Positions 26,661-50,091 of a stretch of 64,000 nucleotides of DNA are shown piece by piece. Position 1 is the stretch's first letter. The number at the start of each line of letters is the position of its first letter. A program made the position numbers and the translations under genes. The notes under the pieces were generated by a model, which worked only from the letters and a program-made list of their open reading frames with translations, was not told the DNA's origin and made no database searches. This DNA comes from Candidatus Aramenus sulfurataquae (GTDB lineage: Archaea > Thermoproteota > Thermoprotei_A > Sulfolobales > Sulfolobaceae). The stretch is from contig ASRH01000004.1 in assembly GCA_000565255.1 (NCBI GenBank), positions 1 to 64,000 of the forward strand. Direction: 5' to 3'.

Positions 26661-26676
26661 TTGTATCACTTTAACG

Positions 26677-26765
<89 letters not shown>

Positions 26766-44527: not shown

Positions 44528-45838
44528 TTAAGGCCTTCGTTTAGGATTCATACTAGACAGTATCTCTCTTAATCGCTTGTACACTTCCTCGAACTCGATT
44601 TTCTCCTCTTCACCCAATTCCAGGAATATGGGCTTGGTCAAGTGCCTATAGTACCTAGCCTGATAAGTGCCCAGGCTAAGCCCCCTTGGAATCTCTACTT
44701 TCACCTTCTCTCCTTGAAACTTATAACCGCACTTTTTACACCTAAATCCCTTTCCCTTACCTAAGGACTCAGAAGGCCCTCCGCACTTGGGGCACCGAGG
44801 GTTTCTGTACTCGTAAGCGTTTAGCGATACTACTCTTATCCTCTCTGCCTCTATCACTTTACCCAGCTCAGTAGAGGGTTTAACTGCGCCGACTATTTCT
44901 ACTTGGTCTCCCTGTTTCAGCAACTGAGCTGCGAGGTTTAACTCCCCGGTTTCCTTGTAAACGATCATGTGCAATTCATTACACGAGATTACGACGTCTC
45001 CTCCCCTTCGTACTTCAGATTTCTCGACTGTGCATAGCCCCCTAAAGGTTTGGTAGAACTTGTCCCCTGGTCTAATCAAGTGGGCGTCCGTGCCTTGGTT
45101 TGACTTAAATATCATTGCGTCAGATATCGGTTCCTTAGTCTTCACTACTTCTAGCCCTAAAAGCAAATGCGTTACGCTAGTTCCTCTTATACCGTAGAGC
45201 ACCGGGTCCTTCCCATGGGGGGTAATGAGGGATTTGCGCTTTACGTAGTCGTAGTTTGCGAAAGTCTTGGGAAACGTTAACTCGTCGAAGTACGTTACGC
45301 TCTTCTCGTCGACTTCCCTATCCTTGTCGAGGTAGTCCTCCTGTCTGTAAGTTATTAGCTCGTAAGTTACTTTACCCTTAAATCCAATGGAGGCCAAAGA
45401 CCCTATAATTCCCCTATAACCTCTTACCTCAGCTCCGGACCTTTCTGCTACCCTCTTTGCCAGGTCCAAGGTGACCACGTCTGACACCGCCTTTACGTAA
45501 ATGGAATACAGTTCGTCTGACCTTTCCTCTTCAAGAACTGCTATTCCTGGCTTTCTTTTGAACTCGAGGCCTCTAGAGAACCAGTTAACGTACTCTAACG
45601 ACTTTTCCCACACAAGGTCTGCCAGCTCCCTCTTAGTACCGTCAAACTCAACAGTGATCCTGACAGCGGCGTTGCCCCTCGTCTTCCAAGGAATGTTTGG
45701 GTTAAGCCTTATTAAGTACGGAAAGTCAACTACGCGTATGCCGTTACTAATGAAATAATTTATTAATAAAGTAGAAAAATGAGTTGTACATCCTCCAATC
45801 GGGGAGTCGTGGTCGTCTACTCCTATTACGTACTTCAT
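44528..45838 (-). CDS. tiaS: tRNA(Ile2) 2-agmatinylcytidine synthetase TiaS
   Basis: This 436-residue enzyme modifies C34 of tRNA-Ile2 (CAU) with agmatine so that it reads AUA. The N-terminal GVDDHDSPIGGCTTHFSTLL, WKTRGNAAVRI, and central HLIRPGDKFYQTFRGLCTVE match the family, and the C-terminus has an OB fold and a zinc ribbon (CPKCGGPSES then FRCKKCGYKF). It is essential in archaea. Its ATG overlaps the AsnC-domain gene as ATGA. Confidence 0.95.
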   Translation of the reverse strand: MKYVIGVDDHDSPIGGCTTHFSTLLINYFISNGIRVVDFPYLIRLNPNIPWKTRGNAAVRITVEFDGTKRELADLVWEKSLEYVNWFSRGLEFKRKPGIAVLEEERSDELYSIYVKAVSDVVTLDLAKRVAERSGAEVRGYRGIIGSLASIGFKGKVTYELITYRQEDYLDKDREVDEKSVTYFDELTFPKTFANYDYVKRKSLITPHGKDPVLYGIRGTSVTHLLLGLEVVKTKEPISDAMIFKSNQGTDAHLIRPGDKFYQTFRGLCTVEKSEVRRGGDVVISCNELHMIVYKETGELNLAAQLLKQGDQVEIVGAVKPSTELGKVIEAERIRVVSLNAYEYRNPRCPKCGGPSESLGKGKGFRCKKCGYKFQGEKVKVEIPRGLSLGTYQARYYRHLTKPIFLELGEEEKIEFEEVYKRLREILSSMNPKRRP

Positions 45839-46095
45839 TTCTTGACAGATTTCCCTTCCATTATTATCATAGTTAGCGTAGACCTTACCTTCGGCAGTTT
45901 CCTTATGGTAGAGCTAACGAAGTTTCTGAGGTAGTCCATATCCGAAGCCTCAACCTTGGCCACGATGTCGTAAACTCCGTAAACTATGTACGCCTCAGTT
46001 ACCTCGTTGTAATTCTTTAGCTTTTCGAAAACTTCCTCTTCTCCTCCAGCGTCTGTATTTATGAGGATTATCGCGGATACCAACTTACCTACCAC
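45835..46095 (-). CDS. stand-alone AsnC/Lrp effector-domain protein
   Basis: The 86-residue product is only the RAM (ligand-binding) domain: SAIILINTDAGGEEEVFEKL, then YIVYGVYDIVAKVEASD. There is no helix-turn-helix. Such proteins bind amino acids and can join full-length Lrp regulators. The GTG at 46095 or a TTG at 46083 (which would give MVSAIILIN) could be the start. It is divergent from tsr3 over 36 AT-rich bases. Confidence 0.85.
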   Translation of the reverse strand: MVGKLVSAIILINTDAGGEEEVFEKLKNYNEVTEAYIVYGVYDIVAKVEASDMDYLRNFVSSTIRKLPKVRSTLTMIIMEGKSVKK

Positions 46096-46131: not shown

Positions 46132-46638
46132 ATGTCAATTAACATTTACGTTATCGAGTTTGACGAGGATGATCCTAAAAAATGTACAGGGAAAAGGATG
46201 ATAAAGTTTGGTTATGCTAGAAAGTCTTACAGACCATTTGGAATTGTTTTAAACCCCCTGTCACAGATTCCCGTGTCTGCAGAAGACAGGGAGACGGTGA
46301 AGAGGTGGGGCATTACCGTAATTGACTCTTCCTGGAACAAGTCGAACGAGGAGTTCTTTATGAAGTTTAACAATAAGTTCTCTAGGAGGTTGCCGTTCCT
46401 CTTGGCAGGTAACCCAATAAACTACGCCAAGCCCTTCAAACTATCGTCAATAGAAGCTGTGGCGGCAGCGCTTTACATAGTTGAGGAGGTGGAGCTGGCT
46501 TACGAAATAATGAACAAGGTAAAGTGGGGTCATACTTTTCTTGAGCTGAACAGGGATCTCTTGGAACTGTATAAAGGTAAGGGGAAAGAGGAGATCTTGA
46601 ATATAGAGGCTGAAGTTATGAAGGGGCCGCAGCAGTAA
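46132..46638 (+). CDS. tsr3: Tsr3-like rRNA aminocarboxypropyltransferase (DUF367)
   Basis: The 168-residue protein has IEFDEDDPKKCTGKRMIKFG, the LNPLSQIPVSAEDRE segment, DSSWNK and LLAGNPINYAKPFKLSSIEA, which define Tsr3. It transfers the aminocarboxypropyl group from SAM to a small-subunit rRNA pseudouridine. Its last five codons (KGPQQ) and stop lie within the 3' arm of helix P1 of RNase P RNA on the opposite strand. Confidence 0.95.
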   Translation: MSINIYVIEFDEDDPKKCTGKRMIKFGYARKSYRPFGIVLNPLSQIPVSAEDRETVKRWGITVIDSSWNKSNEEFFMKFNNKFSRRLPFLLAGNPINYAKPFKLSSIEAVAAALYIVEEVELAYEIMNKVKWGHTFLELNRDLLELYKGKGKEEILNIEAEVMKGPQQ

Positions 46639-46929
46639 CCCAGCTTCTGTAAATTGGGGGATTTGACTTAGCGTACCAGAGGAGGATCGAGCCCAAGCTC
46701 ATCTCCTCCTCAACTTGCTCCGTGGAGGACTGCCGTTTCATTCCCCGAGGTCGATCTCATGTATCCCAGCACGTCGCCGCGCTGGGAGTCCAATCACCTT
46801 CATCTCCGACCTCAGGGATGTCGTTTCTGTGCAGTGGCCAAGGGGACTGCCCTTGTCCCTATTGGGACTCCACTGGGCTAGGAGGCTGGAGTTTCCTCAG
46901 CTTTACCCGTGACCCCCTACTGCGGCCCC
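46623..46929 (-). ncRNA. rnpB: RNase P RNA (archaeal type A)
   Basis: Read on the minus strand, 5' GGGGCCGCAG pairs with 3' CTGCGGCCCC to form P1. Conserved regions follow in order: GCTGAGGAAACTCCAGCC (CR-I), CACAGAAACGACATCCC, AATGAAACGGCAGTCCTCCA and GGAGCAAGTTGAGGAGG (CR-IV area), and ACAGAAGCTGGGTTACTG (CR-V). At about 307 nt the length is typical. Both ends overlap coding sequence: the 5' arm lies in the end of the HTH-CBS gene (same strand) and the 3' arm in the end of tsr3 (opposite strand). Confidence 0.95.
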
Positions 46930-47486
46930 TTATTATTATTAATTAAGTAGCTTATTAAATCACTCCTAGTAATTATACCCAGTGGTTTTAGCTTCTTGTC
47001 CACAACTAGTGTCACAGAGTATTTTGTGAGGAGCTTCATGACTTCCCTGACTGGCGTCTTAGGGTCTATGAGAGGAGGTAGGGGGGCCAGGATATCCTTT
47101 ACCGAGATTTCGTTCGGGCTCTTAACGGCTAACTTTCTCAGAATAACGTAGTCGTATATTATCCCCACCAGTTCAAAGGATGAGTTGACTACCGGAACTT
47201 GGGATATGCCGTGCTTTTCCATCTTGCCAACTATCTCCTTTACACCCTCGTCTAACGTTGCCACTATTACAGGGGAGCGCATGACCCTTTCGGCATACTC
47301 GTTAATCTCCATGAGGGTGGTAAGTTCGTCAAGTATTTTCTTTACGACTGAAAGTTTTGGATCTATCTTCCCGTTTTCTATCTTCGCTATAAGGGATTGG
47401 GAGACGCCCACTCTCTTGGCTAGCTCTGCTTGAGTTATGCCTAGGCTTTCCCTAAGCCTCTTGATCTCTCTTACGTCAAAAATCAT
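46917..47486 (-). CDS. HTH (XRE)-CBS domain transcription regulator
   Basis: The 189-residue protein joins an N-terminal XRE helix-turn-helix (LGITQAELAKRVGVSQSLIAK, about 15-35, in part) to two CBS domains (VSQVPVVNSSFELVGIIYDY and VTLVVDKKLKPLGIITRSDLI, in part). Ligand sensing, perhaps of adenosyl compounds, is expected. It ends NNNKGPQ, where the last four codons and stop overlap the 5' end of rnpB. Confidence 0.9.
   Translation of the reverse strand: MIFDVREIKRLRESLGITQAELAKRVGVSQSLIAKIENGKIDPKLSVVKKILDELTTLMEINEYAERVMRSPVIVATLDEGVKEIVGKMEKHGISQVPVVNSSFELVGIIYDYVILRKLAVKSPNEISVKDILAPLPPLIDPKTPVREVMKLLTKYSVTLVVDKKLKPLGIITRSDLISYLINNNKGPQ
46950..46961 (-). promoter_or_regulatory. TATA box of RNase P RNA inside the HTH-CBS coding region
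   Basis: The minus strand reads ATTTAATAAG (46951-46960), centred 26 bp before the predicted 5' end at 46929. It lies in the last codons of the HTH-CBS gene, so those codons also encode a promoter. Confidence 0.6.
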
Positions 47487-47497
47487 GGCCCTGTTCC

Positions 47498-47671
47498 TTA
47501 AATGGGAACTAGTCTAGAAAGGGCTATGACTATCCCTATAACCACAATGCTACCTATTATCACTACTTTAGGGTCAATCTTAACTTTTTCGTGTTCCTCT
47601 TCGTAATACCTCACTAGGCCAGCCATAGACATAAGTGGAATGTTCTCCTTCTTTTTCTTTGTAGGTGGCAT
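47498..47671 (-). CDS. secG: preprotein translocase subunit Sec61-beta
   Basis: A 57-residue frame from ATG 47671 reads MPPTKKKKENIPLMSMAGLV, then RYYEEEHEKVKIDP, then one hydrophobic span (residues about 36-54). The SMAGLVRYYEEE motif and single C-terminal membrane helix are those of archaeal Sec61-beta, part of the SecYE channel. It begins 3 bp after the GGGP synthase stop, so it is cotranscribed with the lipid gene. Confidence 0.93.
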   Translation of the reverse strand: MPPTKKKKENIPLMSMAGLVRYYEEEHEKVKIDPKVVIIGSIVVIGIVIALSRLVPI

Positions 47672-48866: not shown

Positions 48867-49210
48867 TGTCTAACTAGTAATTTTCTGAGTTTTAATGATT
48901 TTCCGTAAGCGTGAATCTCCAGGAGAACTTCAAATACCTCCTTAGAGCTGGCCCTCAATGTTCTGTAGTTCTCCTTCTCCATGGCCATTTTCAGGGCCAA
49001 TACGTGGTAGCAGAAACCGTCGCCCCTGTATATCTTTCTGAACACGAAAGATTTGCAGTCGCAGGAGTCCTCGTCTAGTATGTGGTCTTTGCTTTTGTCC
49101 TTTCCCAAGAAGACGAAAATTGAGAAAAAGGAGTCGGAGGACACAAGCTTTACTATTCTTCCTTGCTTGACCGAGATTTCAGCTTTTTTTAAAGACCTCG
49201 AGTCTTCCAT
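48863..49210 (-). CDS. SWIM zinc-finger protein
   Basis: The 115-residue protein contains CDCKSFVFRKIYRGDGFCYH (about 50-69), the CxC...CxH pattern of a SWIM domain, followed by a helix (VLALKMAMEK). SWIM domains bind DNA or partner proteins and in archaea often work with SWS1-type recombination paralogues. The start overlaps the end of rpiA by 32 bp. Confidence 0.75.
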   Translation of the reverse strand: MEDSRSLKKAEISVKQGRIVKLVSSDSFFSIFVFLGKDKSKDHILDEDSCDCKSFVFRKIYRGDGFCYHVLALKMAMEKENYRTLRASSKEVFEVLLEIHAYGKSLKLRKLLVRQ

Positions 49211-49862
49211 CTGGACTACCTAGGACTATTTCATCGTACAAGTGGCTACAGAAAATCCCTGTCTCAACCACTCCCGGTATACGCTTAAGTTCCTCGTCTA
49301 ACTTACAAAGGTCTTCTGCCCTAGTTAACACTAGGTCAAGTATAATGTTTCCGTTATCTGAAATGACAGGTCCTATTTTTCCCTCACCCTCCCTTACTAA
49401 TACATCATATTTTTCCCTCACCCTCCCCACAACATAGCTAACGCTCACTGGTACCACTTCTACTGGGACCTTAAATGGGGGCGAGGTCTTCAGCTTCGAG
49501 GACTCCCCTATGAACACTCTGTGGCCAGAGAAAAAAGAAAGGAGTTTCTCCCTAAGTAGGGCTCCCCCTCCGCCCTTTATCATCACGTAGGAGTCGCCTT
49601 GAGGGTAGACCACGTCAAAGCTGTCCACGTATATCTCTGGTCTCACTCCATTAAACAGCGACAGCACCTTCCCTCGATAGGAAGAAACTAACAGTTCCGT
49701 GTCTATGGAACTCGTGACAAAGGTCTTGCTCTCAAGAAGACCGTTCCTTGCAAGAGCCTCTACAAGCTTCCTAACCGTCCTGCCAGTACCTAAACCTATT
49801 ATGTTCCTATTGGGAACTAGCTGTAGGGCGTAATTTGCGACAACTTCCTTGGGATCGTACAC
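49179..49862 (-). CDS. rpiA: ribose-5-phosphate isomerase A
   Basis: From the GTG at 49862 the product is 227 residues, the normal RpiA length. IIGLGTGRTVRKLVEAL (phosphate loop), IKGGGGALLREKLLSF (catalytic region; the usual Asp-Glu-x-D stretch is reduced) and FIGESSKLK are visible. The open frame extends 150 bases upstream but would run through tRNA-Arg. TTTTTATA at 49885-49892 (minus TATAAAAA) puts transcription near 49863, giving a leaderless GTG start. Confidence 0.92.
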   Translation of the reverse strand: MYDPKEVVANYALQLVPNRNIIGLGTGRTVRKLVEALARNGLLESKTFVTSSIDTELLVSSYRGKVLSLFNGVRPEIYVDSFDVVYPQGDSYVMIKGGGGALLREKLLSFFSGHRVFIGESSKLKTSPPFKVPVEVVPVSVSYVVGRVREKYDVLVREGEGKIGPVISDNGNIILDLVLTRAEDLCKLDEELKRIPGVVETGIFCSHLYDEIVLGSPDGRLEVFKKS

Positions 49863-49894
49863 TTTATATTTACTGTTGCCAAGCTTTTTATAAG
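49862..49894. promoter_or_regulatory. interlocked divergent promoters of rpiA and tRNA-Arg
   Basis: TATAAAAA (minus, 49885-49892) is 26 bp from the rpiA GTG. On the plus strand CTTTATATTTAC (49862-49873) is the likely TATA for tRNA-Arg, which would then carry a leader of about 11 nt. Each TATA lies on or beside the other's start site, so simultaneous use looks hindered. Confidence 0.5.
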
Positions 49895-49903
49895 TTTTGT
49901 GAA

Positions 49904-49978
49904 GGACCCGTAGCTCAGCCAGGACGGAGCGCAGGCCTGCGGAGCCTGAGGTCCCGGGTTCGAGTCCCGGCGGGTCCG
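49904..49978 (+). tRNA. tRNA-Arg (GCG)
   Basis: Acceptor GGACCCG pairs with CGGGTCC, the D arm is AGCTCAGCCAGGACGGAGC, the anticodon stem CAGGC/GCCTG surrounds CTGCGGA (anticodon GCG), and the T arm is GGGTTCGAGTCCC. No intron or encoded CCA. Confidence 0.96.
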
Positions 49979-50091
49979 CTCTGTGGATATCCCTACACCT
50001 TCGCTTTTTCAATGAAGAATTTAGCTAGACATCTAAATCCTTTTTCTAATGATCCAGAAAGTTTATCCGTCATTAAATTCGGGCTTCTTGT

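Follow-up and report, generated by a model that had tools for sequence, protein, structure and literature searches.

Introduction

Same-strand gene overlaps in prokaryotes have been derived from the loss of a stop codon, with a replacement stop found in the neighbouring gene (PMC3887535). Measured against short gene-end overlaps of this kind (e.g. PMC3887535 and PMC2716372), the locus analysed here shares a 3'-end overlap of a few nucleotides, a replacement stop taken from the neighbour and a preference for short overlaps, and differs in that both ends of one gene are overlapped and the same peptide is encoded twice. A further difference is that the neighbour is here a structured, conserved RNA, so that a helix and a universally conserved motif provide the replacement stop and the added tail. 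The convergent, overlapping transcripts of Sulfolobus (PMC7667871) provide a second comparison; convergent genes and overlapping 3' regions are common to both, whereas in our case it is coding sequence that overlaps a structural RNA at the level of sequence.

Here, we describe an RNase P RNA gene in a 64,000-nucleotide stretch of DNA from Candidatus Aramenus sulfurataquae, a hot-acid archaeon of the Sulfolobaceae; the whole stretch is called the window below. The RNA itself is no different from other archaeal RNase P RNAs (RF00373), with the same full-length match, conserved regions CR-I and CR-V, covarying P1 helix and single copy, and the locus stands apart only in the protein ORFs that end inside P1. 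We found no earlier description of an overlap between RNase P RNA and protein genes in archaea in the open papers searched, which, with many journals outside that scope, is weak evidence of novelty.

Results

An RNase P RNA gene overlapped at both ends

The first-pass annotation of this DNA had identified the RNA as RNase P RNA, filling the whole gap between tsr3 and a gene for an HTH-CBS protein, and both statements are borne out. The covariance model of Rfam RF00373 matches 46929..46623 on the minus strand over its full length (model 1-288; 171.7 bits, E = 3.4e-49, with a curated cut-off of 84 bits), and a search of the 1.8 Mb genome reveals no second RF00373 copy. Both universally conserved regions are present in the Rfam alignment, CR-I as GAGGAAACUCC and CR-V as ACAGAAGCUGGGUUA (46636..46650, minus strand), as is P1, which joins the two ends of the RNA through 15 pairs. 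We regard this as an ordinary, essential RNase P RNA gene with a predicted role in pre-tRNA 5' cleavage.

On one side lies tsr3, for a 16S rRNA aminocarboxypropyltransferase (46132..46638, plus strand), whose product matches PF04034 (Ribo_biogen_C; E = 2.9e-43, 147.1 bits) and PF04068 (RLI-like N-terminal; 40.3 bits) and is also above cut-off for NF002621; homology to the solved structure 5ap8 stops at residue 163, short of the C-terminal tail. Upstream on the RNA's own strand is the HTH-CBS gene (46917..47486, minus strand; HTH_3 and CBS domains), which sits between the RNA and a gene for a putative Sec61-beta-like small membrane protein of 57 aa (47498..47671, minus strand), so named by its resemblance to the upstream proteins of relatives. 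The convergent tsr3 places 16 nt inside the 3' end of the RNA and HTH-CBS places 13 nt inside its 5' end on the same strand, with the stop codons of both protein genes falling inside the model-defined RNA; since both ORFs end there, the 278-nt gap is wholly filled by RNA. The observation that this RNA overlaps both neighbouring protein ends is thus confirmed.

Elsewhere in the window, tiaS and a small AsnC/Lrp-type ORF (45835-46095) share 4 nt within 44528-46095 on the minus strand, opposite tsr3, and a tRNA gene has both neighbours 6 nt off with no gene overlap. The tRNA gene at 26676-26764 has about 17 extra bases at the anticodon loop region, probably an intron, and ARAGORN gives it no clear anticodon. 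A tRNA-Arg gene (49904-49979) overlaps the beginning of ORF 49179-50012 in antisense, and the TTG start of that ORF is probably placed too far upstream.

The two arms of P1 encode both protein ends

Duplex formation and covariation define the P1 5' arm at 46917..46931 (RNA positions -2 to +13, minus strand), which contains the last HTH-CBS codons, and the 3' arm at 46621..46635 (minus strand), antisense to the last codons of tsr3, KGPQQ. These arms form a perfect 12-nt inverted repeat, AAGGGGCCGCAG/CTGCGGCCCCTT, which with three inner pairs makes 15 pairs at -32.7 kcal/mol. As proposed from the letters of the window alone, P1 encodes the ends of both proteins: tsr3 finishes AAG GGG CCG CAG CAG TAA (KGPQQ) and HTH-CBS finishes AAG GGG CCG CAG TAG (KGPQ). 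The two stops lie in or beside P1, also as proposed, with the HTH-CBS TAG (46917..46919, minus strand) forming the three innermost pairs and the tsr3 TAA abutting the helix, where it is the antisense of the UUA (46636-46638) in ACAGAAGCUGGGUUA. KGPQ appears in both proteins because both frames enter the inverted repeat in the same phase, a match expected by chance one time in three; an inverted repeat and a shared phase suffice to produce the same tail, so that tail identity is neither independent evidence nor a second coincidence.

A TATA-like element, TTTAATAA, marks the predicted promoter of the RNA at 46952..46959 on the minus strand (-30 to -23 relative to the RNA start). It falls inside the HTH-CBS gene, as had been claimed, within codons for D-L-I-S some 11 codons ahead of the end of that gene. 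In S. acidocaldarius, the distance between TATA motif and start is 24-30 bp (PMC12817955).

P1 covaries at every pair

Covariation in P1 was assessed over 17 distinct sequences, Metallosphaera (genus g2) being excluded because its P1 has a bulge. In this set, 95.6% of P1 cells pair, and double changes are found at 12 of 12 pairs, the outermost included, the compensated changes that the first-pass annotation had expected in relatives. The covariation score is 0.868, as compared to 0.191 for shuffled sequences and at most 0.187 when the arms are slid. That each of the 12 pairs covaries among relatives indicates that the arrangement exceeds chance, and P1 is, as judged from these alignments, a real helix under selection. 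A Metallosphaera P1 mispaired at pairs 8-9 was considered and rejected in favor of full pairing with one bulged base. There, an A-U/C-G exchange in P1 is also the AGG/CGG Arg codon change in tsr3. The sister species departs from the window at one of the 29 overlap bases, a synonymous CAG to CAA change in tsr3 that turns a G-C pair of P1 into G-U.

These data bear on whether the RNA might end inside P1, or the outer helix act as a processing stem only, such that the ORFs would not overlap the mature RNA. Pairing often runs 1-4 bases past the model ends, and archaeal RNAs can be trimmed, in keeping with such an arrangement, but covariation extends to the outermost pair, the covariance model derived from known RNase P RNAs spans these bases, and the spacing of the TATA-like element, at -30 to -23, agrees with the first G being the start (cf. 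PMC12817955). Even with inner ends, the tsr3 stop would overlap CR-V, and we consider this reading extremely unlikely.

tsr3 ends inside the RNA in most Sulfolobaceae

We compared 29 Sulfolobaceae genomes that have the RNA, with Tsr3 relatives taken from genome contigs searched with an alignment, which gave matches, the window Tsr3 alone having given none. In 22 of the 29 genomes tsr3 is convergent with the RNA, and in 20 of these, from 8 of the 10 genera, its frame ends within the RNA. The overlap is 9-12 nt in genera g3, g4, g5, g6 and g62 and 16-17 nt in g1 (the genus of the window) and g2, giving a range of 9-17 nt that is exceeded once, by an overlap of 50 nt in one g7 genome. At the locus with the 50-nt overlap (L047 in genome G084; RNA 1501-1813), tsr3 continues antisense through CR-V and adds NNPASVHRGNLT. 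The antisense of the universally conserved UUA often serves as the tsr3 stop codon; in other genera, the stop is the antisense of a CUA or UUA within or beside P1.

The tails of overlapping Tsr3 proteins (KGPQQ, EPRQ or EPQQ, GGP or RGP, GEP or REP, RGA, KGPQ, and REGP) differ between genera in step with differences in P1, as anticipated, and no tail of this type is present in any of the nine Tsr3 proteins without overlap, which end in KILRK, FDLGT, FGLEV, FGLSL, LNPFS or KDG types. In seven genomes tsr3 lies elsewhere, and in one more it is 238 nt off, with P1 intact; the same tails in relatives with separate genes, which the first-pass annotation had set against its own reading, are not seen, as displaced tsr3 genes lack them. 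Relocated tsr3 copies in four g4 genomes group with g6 in the Tsr3 tree (99/98), and g6 tails end in EP while those of the relocated copies do not. These four genomes are a natural experiment in which departure from the RNA accompanies tail loss. At the four loci (L064, L065, L071 and L072 in G131, G146, G141 and G152), the position of tsr3 away from the RNase P gene looks as if the native copy had been replaced by transfer, and in three of them tsr3 is directly beside a tRNA-like sequence.

The tails might instead be functional protein motifs that P1 has adapted to encode, as could be argued from the retention of EPRQ in Metallosphaera through synonymous Pro and Arg codon changes, and from the reappearance of KGPQ in a distant genus (L050). 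The recurring G-P is, however, what a G/C-rich helix encodes, the tails differ by genus and are missing from all Tsr3 proteins without overlap, and P1 covaries also in genomes that have no overlap, all of which makes functional tails decidedly improbable.

In other families of the order, tsr3 and the RNA are again convergent, with most stops from 22 nt short of the RNA to 2 nt inside it; convergent pairs with small gaps are found in three other families. Since these pairs mostly lack a large overlap, adjacency is older than overlap. Independent tsr3 overlaps of 15-16 nt occur at two loci of another family (L207 and L224 in G118 and G095), with tails GGGAGA and GEGAGT.

The convergent order kept across families would suit a regulatory device, in which tsr3 mRNA, whose end is complementary to the RNase P 3' arm and CR-V, would pair with RNase P RNA or be transcribed against it and so couple ribosome maturation to tRNA processing. 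In the window, the tsr3 strand has no five-T run across the entire RNA and the next 150 nt, and the RNA strand has no four-T run over 200 nt, which makes overlapping transcripts plausible; in S. solfataricus, the overlapping 3' UTRs of convergent genes are reported to be substrates of the exosome (PMC7667871). Against such a device, P1 is intact in the seven genomes from whose RNA tsr3 is gone and in the one where it is 238 nt off, and T-richness past the RNA is as strong where tsr3 is non-adjacent (excess 0.130 vs 0.114). That equality also led us to reject an RNA terminator selected within tsr3. We find no evidence of regulation in these sequence comparisons, and a regulatory device is very unlikely. 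Very unlikely, too, is the proposal that the convergent end-overlap is kept since pairing or transcriptional collision balances tRNA processing against maturation of small-subunit rRNA.

The upstream neighbor varies while P1 and the promoter stay

HTH-CBS is directly upstream of the RNA in g1, g2, g8 and g63, with its stop at -4 to 0 relative to the RNA start in g2, +13 in g1, +20 in g8 and +30 in g63, and thus overlaps in three genera; elsewhere the immediate upstream neighbor is the Sec61-beta-like gene, which stops 6-25 nt before the RNA. Overlap at both RNA ends is confined to g1, with two species whose P1 5' arms are identical, and in the remaining genera one side overlaps or neither does, while P1 and the promoter stay. 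A TATA-like element is found approximately 30 to 22 nt before the RNA in nearly all relatives, within the final codons of the upstream gene, be it HTH-CBS or another, with weaker matches in g5 and g62. At four g4 loci (L031, L035, L041 and L048), the Sec61-beta-like stop codon is part of the element (ATTTTAA). The earlier view that protein ends, helix and promoter are fixed together is too strong, since each neighbor can leave with the RNA unchanged. The coupling is one-way: P1 dictates the tails, not the reverse.

Invading frames nearly always use the earliest stop

For every genome, we listed the first stop in all three frames entering the RNA. Of the 20 genomes with tsr3 overlap, 19 have tsr3 in the earliest-stop frame (7 of 8 genera, g7 being the exception), and HTH-CBS is in that frame in all three overlapping genera. 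This amounts to 10 of 11 genus-level lineages; a post hoc hand calculation gives a chance of at least 10 of 11 of 23/177147, or ~1e-4, with the lineages taken as independent, which they are not fully, as the genera are related. Such a bias is consistent with stops having been lost and the shortest extensions then retained.

Discussion

We conclude that this arrangement very probably arose by genomic compaction through stop-codon loss, in which the essential RNA provided the replacement stop and the tails are by-products of P1. Comparison shows tsr3 and the RNA gene to be long-standing convergent neighbors. In most Sulfolobaceae the tsr3 frame extends 9-17 nt into the RNA 3' end and uses a stop supplied by the RNA, antisense either to the CR-V UUA or to a CUA or UUA of P1, and in three genera the HTH-CBS frame enters the 5' end as well. 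As both overlaps occur in g1, its two proteins receive the same tail from opposite strands of P1. The original stops in the narrow gap would have been lost by mutation and the frames lengthened to the next stop. Such short extensions were presumably tolerated because only a few residues are added past the folded domain; P1 would thereafter be kept by selection on the RNA helix, making the tail residues by-products of the RNA, and the position of the RNA promoter in the last codons of the upstream gene would follow from the same close packing.

Two observations count against compaction by stop-codon loss. That the overlap persists throughout the family might point to a selected role, and five of six Metallosphaera tails are identical (EPRQ), the AGG/CGG Arg change being synonymous, which weak selection at the protein level could also explain.

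The locus is a clean example from nature of protein C-termini written by an RNA helix rather than by protein function, and of a universal RNase P motif doubling as a protein stop codon. It also allows the invasion of structural RNA genes by gene ends to be tested by counting. For annotation it carries a warning, in that C-terminal tails at this locus carry little protein signal, and in a genetically tractable relative it could serve to measure convergent transcription against an essential ribozyme. The tsr3-side overlap that recurs through most Sulfolobaceae is best read not as a new device but as close packing of genes, kept within limits by the RNA.
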